From an uncultured Caryophanales bacterium (GTDB taxonomy: Bacteria > Bacillota_I > Bacilli_A > RFN20 > CAG-826): a DNA stretch of 47,069 nt. The stretch covers positions 1 to 47,069 of the forward strand of contig CAMPCW010000003.1 of NCBI GenBank assembly GCA_946647665.1, in the 5' to 3' direction. Below, in pieces: positions 35,623-46,816 of the stretch. Every line of letters begins with the position of its first letter. The stretch's first letter is position 1. The translations under genes were made by a program, and so were the position numbers. The notes under the pieces were generated by a model. That model was not told the origin of the DNA. It did no database searches and worked only from the letters and a program-made list of their open reading frames with translations.

Positions 35623-36915
35623 ATGAAAAAAGTTGGTCTAGTATCATTAGGATGTTCAAAAAACCTCGTTGATAGCGAGAATATTTTAGGATTATTTGAC
35701 CGTAATGGTTATGAAATCACTAATGATCCAAAAGACGCCGATATTATTGTTGTTAATACGTGTGGCTTTATTGAGCCAAGTAAAAAAGAATCCATCGAAA
35801 ATATTTTAGAGATGGTTTCTTATCATAAAAAAGTTGTCGTTACTGGTTGTTTAGCGGAGCGTTACTACGAAGAACTTAAAAAAGAAATCCCAGAAGTGGA
35901 TTTATTTATTCCAATTAGAGACTATGATAAATTTAATAAACTATTATATAGTTTAGATAACTCCATTGACCAAACTTTAGGAGTGGACGACGAATATCGA
36001 ATTGTTTCTACCGGTCCATATAGTGCTTATTTAAAAATAGGTGAAGGATGCGACAATCGATGTAGCTATTGTGCAATTCCTTTAATTAGAGGACATTTTG
36101 TTTCTAGAGACATGGCCTCAATTATTAAAGAAGCAAAAGACTTAGCCTCTAACGGAATTAAAGAAATAGTGGTCTTACAGCAAGACACAACTAAGTACGG
36201 CATAGATATTGGTGACCCAAATGTTAATATTTTTTCTTTATTAAAAGAACTATTAAAAATAAAAGAATTTGACTATATCCGTTTACTATATTTATATCCT
36301 GATGAAATAAGCGATGAATTAATTGAATTAATTGGTAAAGAATCTCGACTTACTCCATATTTTGATATTCCAATTCAACATAGCGAGTCTAATATCTTAA
36401 AAGCGATGTATCGAAGAGGAGATAAAGAGTTCCTTATTAAATTATTTAATAAGATTAGAACCAAAGTCCCTAATGCGATTTTAAGAACCACCGTGATGGT
36501 GGGTTTCCCAGGAGAAACAGAAGAGGATGTTAATAATCTTATTGAATTTATGAAAAATATTAAATTTGATCATCTAGGCGCTTTTACATACTCACAAGAA
36601 GAAGATACAGACGCCGCTAAATTGCCAAATCAAATCGAAGAATGTGAAAAAGTAAAAAGAAAAGATAAAGTCATGAAAGCTCAGCAAAAGATTTCTTATC
36701 AACAAAATAAGAAACATGTTGGTGAAATTATGGAAGGCTTAGTGGTTGGAAAGGATAATGAAAATTATCTTTTAAGAAGTTATTGGAACGCTCCTGACGA
36801 TGTTGATGGTAAAATATATTTTAGTAGTAATAAAGAACTACATATCGGAGACAAGGTGAAAGTAAAAATTAATAACGCTTTTGTCTACGATTTAATGGGG
36901 GAATATGTTTCCTAA
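35623..36915 (+). CDS. rimO: Ribosomal protein S12 methylthiotransferase RimO
   Basis: VGLVSLGCSKNLVDSENILG, GCDNRCSYCAIP radical SAM motif, C-terminal TRAM-like domain. Confidence 0.95.
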   Translation: MKKVGLVSLGCSKNLVDSENILGLFDRNGYEITNDPKDADIIVVNTCGFIEPSKKESIENILEMVSYHKKVVVTGCLAERYYEELKKEIPEVDLFIPIRDYDKFNKLLYSLDNSIDQTLGVDDEYRIVSTGPYSAYLKIGEGCDNRCSYCAIPLIRGHFVSRDMASIIKEAKDLASNGIKEIVVLQQDTTKYGIDIGDPNVNIFSLLKELLKIKEFDYIRLLYLYPDEISDELIELIGKESRLTPYFDIPIQHSESNILKAMYRRGDKEFLIKLFNKIRTKVPNAILRTTVMVGFPGETEEDVNNLIEFMKNIKFDHLGAFTYSQEEDTDAAKLPNQIEECEKVKRKDKVMKAQQKISYQQNKKHVGEIMEGLVVGKDNENYLLRSYWNAPDDVDGKIYFSSNKELHIGDKVKVKINNAFVYDLMGEYVS

Positions 36916-39748: not shown

Positions 39749-40579
39749 ATGAGTTTACAACCTTTCGTTAAATGGGCTGGCGGGAAACGTCAAATAATGG
39801 ATAAACTTCTAAAGTTTAAGCCAAAGAAATATAAGCACTATTTTGAACCATTCGTTGGCGGTGGTGCTTTGCTTATGGAATTAGAACCTATCCACGCAAC
39901 AATTAATGACTCTAATAAAGAACTAATGTATGTCTACAAATGTCTCAGAAATAAAAGGCTATTCAAAAAGTTTTATGAGATTTGTAAGATTCATGAAGAA
40001 AATCATTCCGAAGAGTATTATTACAAAATTAGAGATTTAGACAGAAAAAAGAGCGTCTATGTAAAAATGACAATGCCTGAAAAGGCAGCACGCTGCGTTT
40101 ATCTGAATAAAGCCTGTTTTAATGGCTTATATAGAGTCAGTGGTAAGGGCTACTTCAATGTTCCTTCAGCTAAACGTGAAAAAGTTAAATGTTTCGATGA
40201 AGACAACATTCAAGCACTACATAAATATTTTCATAAAAGAAAACCTATTATTTTAAATAAAGATTTTGCCGATGCTGTTGTGACAGCAAAAGCAGGAGAT
40301 TTTGTCTATTTTGATCCTCCATACGATGTCGTTGGTGAACAATCCTTTACTTCCTATACCGCTAGCGGTTTTGGAAGAGATGAGCAAACAAGACTAAGAG
40401 ATTTAATTAAGACATTAACCGACAAAGGCGTTCTTGTCATGGCGAGTAATGCTAATACACCGTTTATCAAAGATTTATATAAAGATTTCAATATTCATGT
40501 CATCAATGCTAAAAGAATGATTAATTCCAAAGGTGATGGCCGTGGTGATGTTGAAGAAGTGATAATTACTAACTATTAA
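39749..40579 (+). CDS. dpnM: DNA adenine methylase, DpnM/Dam-type
   Basis: FVKWAGGKRQIMDKL, FEPFVGGGALLMEL, FVYFDPPYDVV; first gene of DpnII-type operon. Confidence 0.93.
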   Translation: MSLQPFVKWAGGKRQIMDKLLKFKPKKYKHYFEPFVGGGALLMELEPIHATINDSNKELMYVYKCLRNKRLFKKFYEICKIHEENHSEEYYYKIRDLDRKKSVYVKMTMPEKAARCVYLNKACFNGLYRVSGKGYFNVPSAKREKVKCFDEDNIQALHKYFHKRKPIILNKDFADAVVTAKAGDFVYFDPPYDVVGEQSFTSYTASGFGRDEQTRLRDLIKTLTDKGVLVMASNANTPFIKDLYKDFNIHVINAKRMINSKGDGRGDVEEVIITNY

Positions 40580-40580
40580 T

Positions 40581-41399
40581 ATGTTTACAAAGAAAGATAT
40601 CTTTTTTCAAGATGGTGATTTTACGCTCCTAAAAGGAGATTCTTTCAAACTTCTAAAAAAGATAGAGCCAAAATCGATCGATATGATTTTTGCCGATCCA
40701 CCATATTTTCTTTCCAGTGGTGGTGTTACGTGTCAAAGCGGAAAGCAAGTATCTGTCGATAAAGGAGAATGGGATTATTCAAAAACCATAGAGGATAGAA
40801 TCAAGTATCATCGTAAATGGATTGCTTTATGCAGAGGTGTGCTTAAGGACAACGGGACGATAATGATTTCATCAACATTGCACAGTGTTTATGCCATTGG
40901 TGTAGCTCTAGAACTTGATGGATATTCCATTATTAACAACATTATTTGGAAGAAGACTAATCCTGCTCCAAACTTGTCATGCAGATGTTTTACTCACTCA
41001 ACCGAAACAATTATTTGGGCTAGAAAGCAACTCACATTAAAGAAAAAAGGAAAACATTATTTCAATTATGAGACCATGAAAGAAGAGAATGGTGGAAAGC
41101 AAATGAAAGATGTTTGGGAATTTGATGCCGAACCAGAAATAGTTGAAATTGGTACCGCTTCTAAAAGTGAGAAGAAATTCGGTAAGCACCCAACTCAAAA
41201 GCCAACAAAACTGCTTGAGAGACTAATAACAGCCGCTTCTAAAGAAGGGGATTTAATTCTAGACCCATTTAACGGAAGCGGAACAACAGGAATTGTCGCT
41301 CATAATATGAAACGACAATATATTGGTATAGAATTAGATATAGATTATTTGGAACTTACCAAGAAAAGATACTTAGGAGGCGAATCTAATGGCAAATAG
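40581..41399 (+). CDS. dpnA: Second DNA adenine methyltransferase (DpnA-like)
   Basis: IDMIFADPPYFLSSGG, KHPTQKPTKLLERLI, LILDPFNGSGTTGIVAH. Confidence 0.92.
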   Translation: MFTKKDIFFQDGDFTLLKGDSFKLLKKIEPKSIDMIFADPPYFLSSGGVTCQSGKQVSVDKGEWDYSKTIEDRIKYHRKWIALCRGVLKDNGTIMISSTLHSVYAIGVALELDGYSIINNIIWKKTNPAPNLSCRCFTHSTETIIWARKQLTLKKKGKHYFNYETMKEENGGKQMKDVWEFDAEPEIVEIGTASKSEKKFGKHPTQKPTKLLERLITAASKEGDLILDPFNGSGTTGIVAHNMKRQYIGIELDIDYLELTKKRYLGGESNGK

Positions 41400-42285
41400 A
41401 GATTTCAATCTTTGGCTATCTACAATGAAAGATAGCGTTGCAACCTGGACATATTACACGGACTTCAACAAAGTTTATGAAAACGTGCAGAAAATTAAGG
41501 TAGAACTCAACATTTTAAATTCCCTCATTGGTTCCAAGAATATCGAAGAAGAGTTTAAGAACATCTTGAAGGAATATCCGAAAGTTTTGGTCGTTGTTCC
41601 AATTCTGTTAGCTAAGCGTGAGGCAGAAATCAAAGTTCAAGATGCTGATGGAAGCTATGTTTTTAATTTTGTTAAAATGAATTACACAATCGACCAGTAT
41701 GCTCTATTCATGAGAAATAGTGGACTTTTTGATTTACTACAAAACCACCTCATCAACAACCTGGTTGATTATGTTTTAGGCGTTGAAGTCGGCATGGATA
41801 CAAACGGCCGCAAAAATAGGACCGGCCATGTAATGGAAGATTTGGTCGAATCATATCTCATCAAAGCCGGATTAGTTAAAGGAAAAACATATTTCAAAGA
41901 GATGTATGCTTCTGAAGTTGAGAAAAAATTTCATCTCGATTTATCTAAATTGAGTAATGATGGCAAGGCAGAAAAAAGATTTGATTTTGTGTTCACCAAT
42001 AATTTCGGAACAGTCTTTGCTTGCGAATGCAATTTCTATGGAAGCCAAGGCTCTAAACTGAACGAAACAGCAAGAAGTTATAAAACATTAACTTTAGAAT
42101 CGAAAGAAATTACAGACTTCCAATTTGTTTGGTTTACAGACGGCATAGGTTGGAATTCTGCAAAACACAACTTGGAAGAGACATTTGATGTTTTAGATTG
42201 TTTATATAATCTTCAAGATTTAGAAGAAGGCGCAATTAATGAACTTGTTGAGCCTGAAAAATATTTAAAGAAACTACTTAAATAA
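41389..42285 (+). CDS. dpnB: DpnII-type restriction endonuclease
   Basis: VGMDTNGRKNRTGHVMEDLVESYL, RFDFVFTNNFGTVFACECNFYGSQGSKLNETARSY; follows dpnM/dpnA. Confidence 0.92.
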   Translation: MANRDFNLWLSTMKDSVATWTYYTDFNKVYENVQKIKVELNILNSLIGSKNIEEEFKNILKEYPKVLVVVPILLAKREAEIKVQDADGSYVFNFVKMNYTIDQYALFMRNSGLFDLLQNHLINNLVDYVLGVEVGMDTNGRKNRTGHVMEDLVESYLIKAGLVKGKTYFKEMYASEVEKKFHLDLSKLSNDGKAEKRFDFVFTNNFGTVFACECNFYGSQGSKLNETARSYKTLTLESKEITDFQFVWFTDGIGWNSAKHNLEETFDVLDCLYNLQDLEEGAINELVEPEKYLKKLLK

Positions 42286-42295
42286 GGAGATAATT

Positions 42296-44380
42296 ATGAA
42301 CGCTAATTCTGAAAGAATTCTTACCTACATGTTTGAAAACAGAAGGCAGTATAGCATTCCTGTTTATCAAAGAAACTATGATTGGAAAAGAGACAACTGT
42401 GTCACTTTATTTGATGACATCAAGAATCTAATTAACACTGAGAAAAAACACTTTCTTGGTACTATTGTTCAGGTTTCTCTCGAAGAAAAGAATGGCATTA
42501 AGCGCTATTTAATTATCGATGGTCAACAAAGATTTACCACTTTGTTTTTGCTCATTAAGGCTTTAAGAGATTCAACCGTCAAAGAAAGCGAACAAGAATT
42601 ATGTGATGAAAAGCTCTTTAATATCGATAAGTTTAAAGACTGGTCACAAGACGAACAAAGCCGTTTGAAACTAAAACCAATTAAGACAGATAATGAACAA
42701 CTCCTCCTTTTAATGGCGGGTAACATTGAGGCAATGGACAAGAGTTCAAATATTTATTTGAATTATGACTACTTCCTAAAGCTTATTAAGGAATTATTGG
42801 CGACTGGAATTACTGTTCGTGACTTCATGAATGGTATGGATAGATTAGAATGCGTCATGATTACCTTGTTTGAAGAGAAGGGCGATGAACCTCAAGTAGT
42901 TTTTGAAAGAATTAACTCAACTGGCCTAGATTTGACATTATCCGACTTGATTAGAAACTACATCTTGATGACAGATGAAGATGCTGAGCACCTTTACAAC
43001 GAATATTGGATCAAGATTGAAAACAAGCTAGGAAGAGATACTGGAACCTTATCCGAATACTTTATCGACTATTTCAATTACTTATTACCAGAGCAAGTTT
43101 ATGCTAAAAACGCTTATGACTTGTTTAAGAAATATGCTTTGCGAAGCAATTTAAGCCATGAAAGCATTCTCAAAGGCATATACGATTCAGTTGAAGCATA
43201 TGCTGCTTTCATTGGAAAAGATAATAAATATAGCGAAAAAATTAATGAGAAACTCTCATATTTCAGATCATTAAAACAATCAACCATTTATACATTCTTG
43301 TTAAATGTGTTTTCTGATTTCGACAATGGTGTGATTTCCGAAGATGTCCTTTGTGAATTATTGGATTTCTTCATCTCATATACTGTGAGACGTTACATAA
43401 CTGGAGTCCCATCGAATTCATATAGAAGCTTCTACAAGTCTCTTTATAAAAGAGTCTTTGATGATGAGTCACTTAGAACTGAAGAGAACTATTTAAAAAC
43501 TATTTATTCATTTATGTTACAACTCAATACCAAAGATGCAGTGCCTTCTAATCTACAATTTGAAAGCTGCCTCAAGACAGAAAAGATTTATGAAAAAGAC
43601 GCGAGAATCTGTAAGTTCTTGCTTTGCTGTATTGAAAACTATGGTTCATCCGAAAAAGTTGAAGCAAATAGTTTAGTAACTATTGAACATATTATGCCTC
43701 AATCCGTACAAGACAATTGGAAGGATGAAATTGGCGAAGACTATGATTTCGTCCATGAAAAGTATTTACATACTTTAGGCAACTTAACTTTAACTGGTTA
43801 TAACTCGGAATTAGGCACCAAGTCATTCAACGAAAAAGTTGAAATGATGAAAGACAAGAATTCCAAGATGGTTACTCTTAATAAGGATGTTTATACTGCA
43901 ACCAAGTGGACAAAGAAATCTATTGAAGATAGAGCTGAGCGACTCGCTTCAATATTACTCAAAGCTTTCCCTCTTCCACAGTTAGCAGAACAAATCAAGT
44001 TTGAAAACATCAAGGATAACGCGCTTACCTACAACGATGTTGATAAGGTCAGAGGAACTAAGCCAACTTCATTCATCTGCTTAGGTGAAAGAGTGTTAGT
44101 TGATTCCTGGTCTGATATGTTAACAAAGCTATTCAATGTTTTATATGAGCTTGATTCAGCAAGATTAGAAGAATGCGCTAAAGAGAAATTTAAACTTGAA
44201 CATGCGGACAAAGTTTACATCACCTATGATGTCAATGACTTGAGAAAGCCATACGAGATCAAGAATAGTGGCATCCTCATCGAAACAAATTTGAGTTCAA
44301 CAAACATTTTGTCTTTTATTAGAGAGACGTTTGATAAGTATAACCTTTCTGATGATGACTTCATCTTCTATATCGAATAA
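42296..44380 (+). CDS. DUF262/DUF1524 protein (GmrSD-like, type IV restriction-related)
   Basis: YSIPVYQRNYDWKRDNC, IIDGQQRFTTLFLL, HNH motif VTIEHIMPQSVQDNWKDE..YLHTLGNLTLTGYN. Confidence 0.9.
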   Translation: MNANSERILTYMFENRRQYSIPVYQRNYDWKRDNCVTLFDDIKNLINTEKKHFLGTIVQVSLEEKNGIKRYLIIDGQQRFTTLFLLIKALRDSTVKESEQELCDEKLFNIDKFKDWSQDEQSRLKLKPIKTDNEQLLLLMAGNIEAMDKSSNIYLNYDYFLKLIKELLATGITVRDFMNGMDRLECVMITLFEEKGDEPQVVFERINSTGLDLTLSDLIRNYILMTDEDAEHLYNEYWIKIENKLGRDTGTLSEYFIDYFNYLLPEQVYAKNAYDLFKKYALRSNLSHESILKGIYDSVEAYAAFIGKDNKYSEKINEKLSYFRSLKQSTIYTFLLNVFSDFDNGVISEDVLCELLDFFISYTVRRYITGVPSNSYRSFYKSLYKRVFDDESLRTEENYLKTIYSFMLQLNTKDAVPSNLQFESCLKTEKIYEKDARICKFLLCCIENYGSSEKVEANSLVTIEHIMPQSVQDNWKDEIGEDYDFVHEKYLHTLGNLTLTGYNSELGTKSFNEKVEMMKDKNSKMVTLNKDVYTATKWTKKSIEDRAERLASILLKAFPLPQLAEQIKFENIKDNALTYNDVDKVRGTKPTSFICLGERVLVDSWSDMLTKLFNVLYELDSARLEECAKEKFKLEHADKVYITYDVNDLRKPYEIKNSGILIETNLSSTNILSFIRETFDKYNLSDDDFIFYIE

Positions 44381-44576: not shown

Positions 44577-44608
44577 TGTGACACTTTTGTGACGCATGTA
44601 GGTATAGT
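44577..44608 (+). promoter_or_regulatory. TGTGAC-N5-TGTGAC direct repeat plus -10 TATAGT
   Basis: TGTGACACTTTTGTGAC (44577-44593), TATAGT (44603-44608). Confidence 0.6.
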
Positions 44609-44637: not shown

Positions 44638-46020
44638 ATGCTTAAGAAAAATGTAATCTTCATATTAACTAACACAATGGCTATTGGAGTTTTTGCTTCG
44701 GTTGCCTTATTATCAAACAACTTGGGTAGTTCTTCATTTTTGAATGCTGAGAGCGAACCATACACATTAACAATTAACGCATCGAATAGATCTAATTTTG
44801 TTCAAGATGGTGATGTTTATAGAGGAACATTCAAAACAGGTCTTGGTAACGATGTCACATTTGTCACCAATTCAGTTAATTTTATTGGAGAAGATGTTTT
44901 TTATTGGCAAAGAAATAGCGGGTATTTAAAAAATGAAACTGCTATGACTGGTTTATACCAAATCGATATAAGCGCTTATGTCTATGGAGGTCCAAATCCA
45001 AGCGCTGCAACTCTTAGAACTGAAACAAGGATTGATCCAAAACAAGCGAGTTCGGTTTATAGCGTAGACAAGATGATTGGTGCAAAATCAGTTCAAACAT
45101 ATTCAATAAATATTCCTAACAACCAAAATCATGGAAATTATATTTCTATGAAATTAAACGAAAACATCCAATATGCATCTCGCTTAGAAGTCACATCAGT
45201 CAAATTTTATTTTAGTTGTTCGAACGTTAAAAACCTCGTAAAAGTGTCTTCCACAAATGAAAGCTATGGAACAGTTTCAATCGAAGGTTATGGTAGCAAC
45301 GAACAAATTGTGGCTAATGGAACTCAAATCACAATTCATGCAAATCCACTCACCAATTATCAAACTGAGTTTTTTGCATCTTTCAAAGGTTGGCATTTAA
45401 ACGGCAGTGAAGAAGTCGTAAGCAGAGATTTCGACATAACGTTCACCACAGAATTAAATAAATCATATGTTTATGTGGCAGAATTTGAAGAAGCTGAAAC
45501 AGAATTATTTGACCAAGGTGTAGACACTTCAGGCGATAAATTAACTACTTATGTAAAAAACAAGAATAACAAGTATTATCCACTCAACAGCGTGAAAGAT
45601 GATAATACGTCTTTTCCAACAGCCCTAACTGACAAAGTTAACGAATTATTTATTGCACAACATTTCAGTAGGGAGAATTACTTGACCCATCTTGAATTAA
45701 ATATTGATCGCAAAGGCCGTGGCAATTGGGAACCATTTGATCCAGACAAAATTCAAGCAGTTATCTTCTATATGAATATGGACCAGCCTACACAATACGA
45801 CCCAGTTGGAATTGATCAATTTGTAACAACAAACGGAACGCTTACAACATACAGCGGTTTAAAAGATAAAACAGATGGAAATAAGGCTATGAGTAAGGTT
45901 GTTTGGACAAACTTCACATCTAATAAAGCTGAATTTTATGTTCCTAATAAGTACCGAGATCCAGATAACATCATAAAACACAATATTTGGATCAAGAGAA
46001 TGCTGGTTATTGAAAGATAA
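44638..46020 (+). CDS. Exported protein with divergent InlB B-repeat-like domain
   Basis: N-terminal signal peptide; SYGTVSIEGYGSNEQIVANGTQITIHANP..FASFKGWHLNGSEEVVSRDFDITFT; SD GGAGG. Confidence 0.7.
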   Translation: MLKKNVIFILTNTMAIGVFASVALLSNNLGSSSFLNAESEPYTLTINASNRSNFVQDGDVYRGTFKTGLGNDVTFVTNSVNFIGEDVFYWQRNSGYLKNETAMTGLYQIDISAYVYGGPNPSAATLRTETRIDPKQASSVYSVDKMIGAKSVQTYSINIPNNQNHGNYISMKLNENIQYASRLEVTSVKFYFSCSNVKNLVKVSSTNESYGTVSIEGYGSNEQIVANGTQITIHANPLTNYQTEFFASFKGWHLNGSEEVVSRDFDITFTTELNKSYVYVAEFEEAETELFDQGVDTSGDKLTTYVKNKNNKYYPLNSVKDDNTSFPTALTDKVNELFIAQHFSRENYLTHLELNIDRKGRGNWEPFDPDKIQAVIFYMNMDQPTQYDPVGIDQFVTTNGTLTTYSGLKDKTDGNKAMSKVVWTNFTSNKAEFYVPNKYRDPDNIIKHNIWIKRMLVIER

Positions 46021-46073: not shown

Positions 46074-46192
46074 TTATGATATTGCTACTAAAAAGAAGTT
46101 TTAGACTTCTTTATTTGCTAACTCCATGAGGTTTTTGACACGATTAAAAAAGTTTGATTATATCTATATTTTGTGGAGGTGCTACTAACATT

Positions 46193-46233
46193 CAAAAAGT
46201 GTTCATTGTATCAAACTCGGTGCACTTATAGAA
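46193..46233. repeat. Copy 1 of a ~40-bp degenerate repeat
   Basis: AAAAGTGTTCATTGTATCAAACTCGGTGCACTTATAGAACC; similar to 46775. Confidence 0.4.
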
Positions 46234-46402: not shown

Positions 46403-46436
46403 TGTGGCACTTTTGTGACAGAATCAATGATATAGT
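46403..46436 (+). promoter_or_regulatory. TGTGGC-N5-TGTGAC direct repeat plus -10 TATAGT
   Basis: TGTGGCACTTTTGTGAC (46403-46419), TATAGT (46431-46436). Confidence 0.6.
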
Positions 46437-46461
46437 AAAAATAACAAGAAGGACTTAGATT

Positions 46462-46755
46462 ATGAAACAAGATTTATTAAAAGATTTAACAGAAGAACAA
46501 ATTGCAAAAATTAAAGCCTGTAATAACAGTGAAAAATTATTAGCGTTAGCAAAAGAAGAAGGCGTGGAATTAACCGATGAGCAATTAAGCGCGATATCCG
46601 GGGGATGCTTATTCAGTTCAACTAAAAATGATTGTCCTCAATGTGGCGCTGGATATGATGACATTATGTTCTGGAGTGAACGTTTTGCAGATGGGCATGA
46701 AACCGTTCATTACGAATGCAAAAAATGTCAATGTCAATGGACCAAGAATAGATAA
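46462..46755 (+). CDS. Nif11-like leader peptide protein, putative RiPP precursor with Cys-rich zinc-ribbon-like core
   Basis: LLKDLTEEQIAKIKACNNSEKLLALAKEEGVELTDEQLSAISGG double-Gly leader; C-terminal CPQC...CKKCQC. Confidence 0.75.
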   Translation: MKQDLLKDLTEEQIAKIKACNNSEKLLALAKEEGVELTDEQLSAISGGCLFSSTKNDCPQCGAGYDDIMFWSERFADGHETVHYECKKCQCQWTKNR

Positions 46756-46774
46756 TTTAGTTTGTTTTAACATT

Positions 46775-46816
46775 TTAAAAGTGTTCCTTGTATTATTCTC
46801 GTAGTACTTAGACAAC
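46775..46816. repeat. Copy 2 of a ~40-bp degenerate repeat
   Basis: AAAAGTGTTCCTTGTATTATTCTCGTAGTACTTAGACAACC; similar to 46193. Confidence 0.4.

Follow-up and report, generated by a model that had tools for sequence, protein, structure and literature searches.

A Nif11-like leader before a predicted zinc-ribbon core: a candidate family of NHLM-exported miniproteins in rumen Bacilli and Lachnospiraceae

Does a small gene that joins a Nif11-like leader to a core resembling a zinc ribbon encode the precursor of a modified peptide, or a folded metal-binding protein that is exported behind the leader of such a peptide? The question is raised by an open reading frame (ORF) of 97 amino acids at 46462..46755 (+) in a 47,069-nucleotide contig (CAMPCW010000003.1, here called the window) from an uncultured Caryophanales bacterium. 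We give a probability of roughly 0.7 to the reading that this gene is a member of a large family of zinc-ribbon miniproteins, exported by an NHLM system with cleavage of their leaders and having an effector, signaling or surface role. The evidence computed here comprises the architecture of the precursors, the conservation of their cysteines, the ribbon fold, the recognition residues of the leader, co-occurrence with an exporter and a shared promoter box.

Translation, profile matches and relatives all identify the ORF as a Nif11-leader/zinc-ribbon precursor gene, and translation of 46462-46755 gives exactly the protein of the initial annotation. Its stop codon lies 314 nt from the contig end, and upstream are a good ribosome-binding site (AGAAGGA, 46447..46453, +) and a promoter-like region. 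The ORF is kept across ten species (81-95% identity in the nine relatives), which argues that it is more than a chance reading frame. Residues 1-48 (46462..46605, +) form the leader, which ends in ...LTDEQLSAISGG, and the remaining 49 (46606..46752, +) form the predicted mature core. Within the core, the first zinc knuckle is C58-PQ-C61 (46633..46644, +) and the second is C86-KK-C89 (46717..46728, +).

The gene had been called an orphan, which it is not. In its own genome (672 kb, 69% complete) two paralogs lie close together on another contig (G000:C2:49177 and 50300), both with a Nif11-GG leader followed by a zinc-knuckle core. The family is present in 17 of the 59 genomes of a set of relatives that includes the window genome and consists mostly of rumen metagenome-assembled genomes (MAGs). 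A single genome may have as many as 22 matches, and tandem arrays are frequent. When named genomes were scanned, relatives appeared in rumen MAGs bearing the labels Erysipelotrichaceae, Bacillales and Bacilli, as well as in rumen Lachnospiraceae, including Pseudobutyrivibrio sp. UBA3626. Phylum-wide the family is rare (5 matches across a spread of 388 genomes). A viral origin was considered and rejected, as no relatives were found in viral contigs. One contig binned as Candidatus Saccharibacteria (L234, CAMVEA010000052.1) carries three family genes; one of these is nearly identical to a gene of a Bacilli MAG (L182), so the contig is probably misbinned.

We collected 106 family members: 94 long double-knuckle precursors, 7 short GG peptides and 5 truncated or frameshifted copies. 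The double zinc knuckle is kept in all 94 intact long members of the first set. In alignments of 25 and 29 diverse members, the invariant core columns are the four zinc-ligand cysteines, C58, C61, C86 and C89 of the window protein. The initial annotation had read a CxxC...CxxCxC core; the two CxxC pairs stand, but the last cysteine, C91, is not conserved. The first knuckle is commonly CPxCG, and the cysteine spacing is of the metal-knuckle type, with conserved proline, glycine and aromatic or strand residues. For the whole precursor, AlphaFold predicts a confident three-stranded core (strands at core residues 20-26, 32-38 and 44-48) behind a helical leader of low confidence; for the core alone the pLDDT is 86.6, with 91-94 across the ribbon. 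The predicted structure thus has the two CxxC-type knuckles and three-stranded sheet of a zinc-ribbon fold. The best Foldseek matches are the zinc ribbons of RPA12, NrdR and RPB9 (probability 1.00, root-mean-square deviation ~2-3 Å over 43-46 columns). By sequence profile the core matches the RPB9 ribbon of T. celer (1qyp, E 6e-5) and, weakly, Zn_ribbon_TFIIS (E 0.018). The zinc-ribbon-like core proposed earlier is supported by the invariant ligands, the model and these fold matches, and zinc binding by the core is highly probable.

Sequence varies more in the leader than in the core. Against the Nif11 model PF07862 the window leader scores 20.3 bits (E 7e-4), slightly below the gathering cut-off of 23.8, and against TIGR03798 it scores 18.9 bits (other members tested, at most 24.0), where the cut-off is 32.3. 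Its two same-genome paralogs score 24.0 and 23.8 bits against PF07862, at or above the cut-off, and 24 of 25 members match that model at E<=0.1. Models of the VP1 pheromone and cerein type match the GG region weakly. The Nif11-type N-terminus first described is therefore best termed Nif11-like, its score being borderline. The GG motif said to end the leader is, by comparison, firm: positions -2 and -1 are glycine in 94 of 94 long members, in which position -12 is always L and -7 is L or I, while -4 is V or I in 93. Hydrophobic residues at -12, -7 and -4 plus glycine at -2 and -1 are the pattern of substrates of the peptidase-containing ATP-binding cassette transporters (PCATs). The C39 domain of LahT, a PCAT of Lachnospiraceae, buries exactly these leader positions and the GG, and LahT cleaves Nif11 leaders with widely differing cores (PMC6363468). 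The window leader has L-12, L-7, I-4 and GG.

A full-length C39-ABC exporter is found in 14 of the 17 family genomes and in none of the 42 others (p 5e-11). The three family genomes without it (G000, which is the window's own, G009 and G033) are each less than 80% complete; among genomes at least 80% complete the exporter is present in 13/13 with the family and 0/38 without it. In one genome (G008) the exporter is split over two contigs. By NCBIfam the exporter of the relatives is NHLM_micro_ABC1 (825 bits, cut-off 853, which some ABC1 copies pass), and its partners are an ABC2-like protein (398 bits on a truncated copy, cut-off 709) and a short HlyD-like protein encoded beside it (22.7 bits, cut-off 156). 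NHLM_ABC1 also occurs in 13 of 15 further family genomes, five Lachnospiraceae among them, with an ABC2-like gene adjoining in nearly all; of the two without it, one is a contig assigned to Saccharibacteria, possibly by misbinning. The related NHLP leaders likewise track the transporter rather than the modifying enzyme (Haft et al., PMC2887384). Export of the core by an NHLM system is very likely. A different C39-domain membrane protein, of ~410-440 amino acids and without an ATPase domain, occurs in almost all genomes of the order regardless of the peptide family (for example L037:1408-2718, where it lies near dnaJ and ybeY).

About 70 of the 106 family genes carry an 18-bp box, TGTGRCACATTTGTGACA, at 57-64 nt 5' of the ATG, when at least 14 of 18 matches are required; the best of 2120 shuffled upstream regions reached 13. 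Members without the box are mostly downstream genes of arrays. A reversed control pattern had no matches in eight genomes, and the box itself had none in two family-less genomes. At the window gene the box is TGTGGCACTTTTGTGACA (46403..46420, +), 59 nt 5' of the ATG, with a chance expectation of 0.01 matches in the window. It is followed by an extended -10-like element, TGATATAGT (46428..46436, +), which aligned relatives have at the same position. The box consists of two 7-bp repeats with an 11-bp period, ~10 nt before the -10 element, which we take to resemble a PhoB/OmpR-type activated promoter. An adjacent response regulator was dropped as the certain binder: it is associated with the family (11/17 vs 3/42, p 1e-5), yet is present in three family-less genomes. 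The same box precedes genes for secreted proteins and lipoproteins, and is also present in exporter loci. In Lachnospiraceae the members share the architecture but lack the box.

From these features we infer cleavage, export, the metal, the lack of chemical modification and the biological role. The peptide gene would be transcribed from the repeat-type activator box, which would likewise drive the exporter cassette and the co-regulated secreted proteins. The 48-residue leader would be bound by the C39 domain of NHLM_ABC1, acting with ABC2 and the short HlyD-like subunit; cleavage after GG would follow, and the 49-residue core would be exported, probably without chemical modification. In the reducing, anaerobic gut outside the cell, Zn(II) would be bound by the four cysteines and the core would fold into its three-stranded ribbon, with different genes presenting different ribbon surfaces. 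The ribbons would most likely act on neighboring cells, by antagonism or signaling, or at the cell surface; for antagonism or signaling as the role of the core the odds appear to be about even.

Several observations weigh against this proposal. The Nif11 model scores lie at or below curated cut-offs, and zinc ribbons are usually intracellular. The Foldseek E-values are weak (best 0.013), as is expected for a domain of 49 residues. The genomes in which co-occurrence was counted are related, so that the p-values overstate independence, and all genomes examined are MAGs. Finally, neither the NHLM exporter nor the radical SAM gene of its cassette was found in the window's own 69%-complete assembly; the GG-peptidase that the initial annotation had looked for in the genome is thus missing there, although it is present in every family-bearing genome of the relatives set that is at least 80% complete.

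The alternative that survives best, which we nevertheless consider unlikely, is a PCAT-exported cell-envelope protein comparable to MAM of Faecalibacterium, which would build a layer or scaffold at the surface jointly with the co-regulated secreted proteins. MAM resembles the present family in having a GG leader before an apparently unmodified, folded, PCAT-exported protein, and it combines strict PCAT co-occurrence with an envelope location (PMC12184118). The upstream neighbor of the window gene also fits such a role. It encodes a predicted secreted protein of 460 amino acids with an N-terminal signal-like segment (44638..46020, +), and a second copy of the promoter box, with 2 mismatches, lies 61 nt 5' of it (44577..44594, +). 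In 4 of 7 genomes a homolog of this protein is encoded no more than 2 kb from the peptide gene. Against an envelope role, neither repeats nor a lattice nor a motif for anchoring was seen, and MAM, whose short leader is not of the Nif11 type, is a single abundant helical protein, whereas many divergent ribbons are encoded per genome here. The secreted-protein family to which the neighbor belongs (IDASNxSNFVQDGDVYRGTFKT...; window 44638-46020), which shares the promoter box of the peptide genes, is also found in L137, L142 and L087:3990-5381.

The contents of the exporter cassette bear on a second alternative. In both Bacilli and Lachnospiraceae the cassette includes a radical SAM/SPASM protein of 465 amino acids together with STAS and RsbW-like or SpoIIE-type regulators; two Lachnospiraceae loci also encode an extracytoplasmic function (ECF) sigma factor, and several Bacilli a histidine kinase, a response regulator or both. 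RsbV/RsbW/SpoIIE-type partner-switching genes are attached to the NHLM cassettes of L277, L280, L078 and L282. The radical SAM/SPASM protein tracks the family (12/17 vs 0/42 genomes), and Nif11 leaders are classic leaders of ribosomally synthesized and post-translationally modified peptides (RiPPs; PMC2887384). The window gene might accordingly encode a true RiPP precursor, crosslinked, for example at its cysteines, by this enzyme or by another acting in trans, so that its zinc-ribbon appearance would be secondary. That this is so appears rather improbable. The radical SAM gene in Bacilli usually adjoins a short GG peptide of 61-68 amino acids whose K/R-rich ...I-(D/E)-(D/S) tail the zinc peptides lack, and this peptide is likely the substrate of the enzyme. 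The metal-knuckle cysteine spacing, the conserved proline, glycine and aromatic residues and the confident fold prediction argue in the same direction. LanM was not noticed among the ORFs of the cassettes read, although no genome-wide LanM search was made. Within the window, the initial annotation had reported no radical SAM or C39 gene; no C39 peptidase was indeed found on the contig, but a radical SAM protein is encoded at 35623-36915, a housekeeping methylthiotransferase of the RimO/MiaB type and not a RiPP enzyme.

Of the two interpretations first offered, a RiPP precursor matured in trans is thus not supported, the sole candidate enzyme usually adjoining a different peptide. A metal-binding exported peptide with a RiPP leader is well supported, as a prediction, by the invariant cysteines, the ribbon model, the PCAT recognition residues and the co-occurrence with NHLM. 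Zinc-ribbon GG peptides are encoded inside the exporter cassettes themselves at L277:14308-14625 and L283:6843-7088. The second, of 81 amino acids, has its zinc-ribbon core behind a short GG leader (~25 residues) that is not of the Nif11 type, a link between zinc ribbons and the exporter that does not depend on the Nif11 leader. The radical SAM gene adjoins the zinc peptide gene in L283 and is 1.2 kb from it in L277, where ECF sigma and STAS genes lie between. Peptides with a K/R-rich tail ending ...(I/F)-x-(D/S) were observed beside radical SAM/SPASM genes at L069:5721-5906, L073:5795-5992, L072:4098-4292, L282:4573-4779 and L280:14199-14456, the last lacking GG and being assigned by its tail only. 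They are probable substrates of the radical SAM/SPASM enzyme and possibly signals.

A third alternative, about as improbable as the RiPP precursor, is that the family provides exported or surface scavengers of zinc or another metal, similar to metallophores, in place of effectors or signals. Sites of four cysteines bind zinc tightly, and the many copies are hydrophilic (median grand average of hydropathy about -0.65). Non-ligand residues are, however, strongly conserved within each core group, with a mean proportion of nonsynonymous differences in the core (pN) of about 0.04, conservation that a generic chelator would not need, and no zinc uptake gene was noticed among the box-controlled genes. 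Least credible is an intracellular protein whose N-terminal domain, though ending in GG, does not serve as a cleaved leader: zinc ribbons typically belong to the nucleic-acid machinery inside cells and the exporter is missing from the window's own assembly, but the invariant PCAT recognition residues, the genome-wide association with the exporter in both bacterial classes and the same kind of core behind a different short GG leader inside an exporter cassette all argue against it.

In most carriers the window gene lies near an ABC-FtsX/rimO/GH3 block. A first alignment had suggested a mobile cassette, a unit of ~430 bp in unrelated contexts; this was dropped, since most copies lie downstream of the same block, and the window gene is thus a positional ortholog in a variable region. 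Among the ten species, synonymous sites of the nearby rimO are near saturation (proportion of synonymous differences, pS, 0.58-0.73), while pS in the peptide core is 0-0.18 (median 0.09) and ~60 nt past the stop codon are conserved too. The DNA of the core and 3' region (46606-46814) is nearly identical in L084, L085, L087-L090, L170, L172 and L173. In most other core groups synonymous sites have diverged further while the protein is conserved. The DNA-level conservation of the window gene may have arisen by recent exchange among species of the rumen or through a function at the nucleotide level. The 3' region includes an element (46776..46814, +) present in all ten species, with a diverged copy after the gene for the 460-residue protein (46179..46231, +). 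An integron-like or dispersed repeat was rejected, as the element is not a general repeat, and so was an RNA element, since Rfam gave no match and folding was unremarkable. Defence genes lie between the GH3 gene and the gene for the 460-residue protein (39749-44380): two DNA methyltransferases, one of the D12 and one of the N6_N4 class, and two endonucleases, one DpnII-type and one GmrSD-type.

The proposed family of exported ribbons shares features with several known systems. Like the Nif11-derived peptides (N11P) and their NHLM genes (TIGR03794/03796/03797; PMC2887384), it has a Nif11-like leader, GG, many paralogs and a tie to NHLM_ABC1/ABC2/HlyD. It differs in its conserved, folded zinc-ribbon core, in scores at or below cut-offs, in a short HlyD partner (~130 amino acids) and in that no TOMM or LanM enzyme was noticed. 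Prochlorosins and the lah cluster of Lachnospiraceae C6A11 (PMC6363468, PMC10783134) also combine many Nif11 leaders and divergent cores with one modifying enzyme or transporter; their cores are lanthipeptides, whereas the four cysteines here are invariant and are predicted zinc ligands. Class II bacteriocins and double-glycine pheromones share the GG leader, C39-ABC export and a multigene regulon, and differ from the longer Nif11-type leader and hydrophilic zinc-ribbon core of this family. No dedicated immunity gene was noticed in the arrays read. The open-access literature searched contained no account of zinc-ribbon cores that follow Nif11 leaders, and NCBIfam 20 has no dedicated model for the family, which is apparently undescribed in the searchable open literature.

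The window core most closely resembles the RPA12/RPB9 ribbon, sharing fold and local sequence (CPQCG...R.AD...TVxYxC..C) with the C-terminal ribbons of RPB9, RPA12 and TFIIS. It differs in that DGHE, NGHE or KGHE stands, in the ten species, where TFIIS-type ribbons have their acidic DE pair, and in its bacterial, predicted exported context. On a distinctly speculative view, to which we give little credence, rumen Bacilli and Lachnospiraceae would secrete dozens of zinc-ribbon miniproteins, a repertoire that can be switched, to act inside or on neighboring cells, some of them, including this one, imitating RNA-polymerase ribbons of the RPB9/RPA12/TFIIS type. If this were true, these miniproteins would be a new class of effectors exported by a route borrowed from RiPPs.

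Members of the family occur in two bacterial classes that share the rumen, and since some of its carriers are Lachnospiraceae with culturable relatives, export and activity are testable. The observations presented here suggest that folded metal-binding domains, in a large repertoire, also leave the cell by the NHLM/PCAT route, whose known cargo is modified peptides and bacteriocins.
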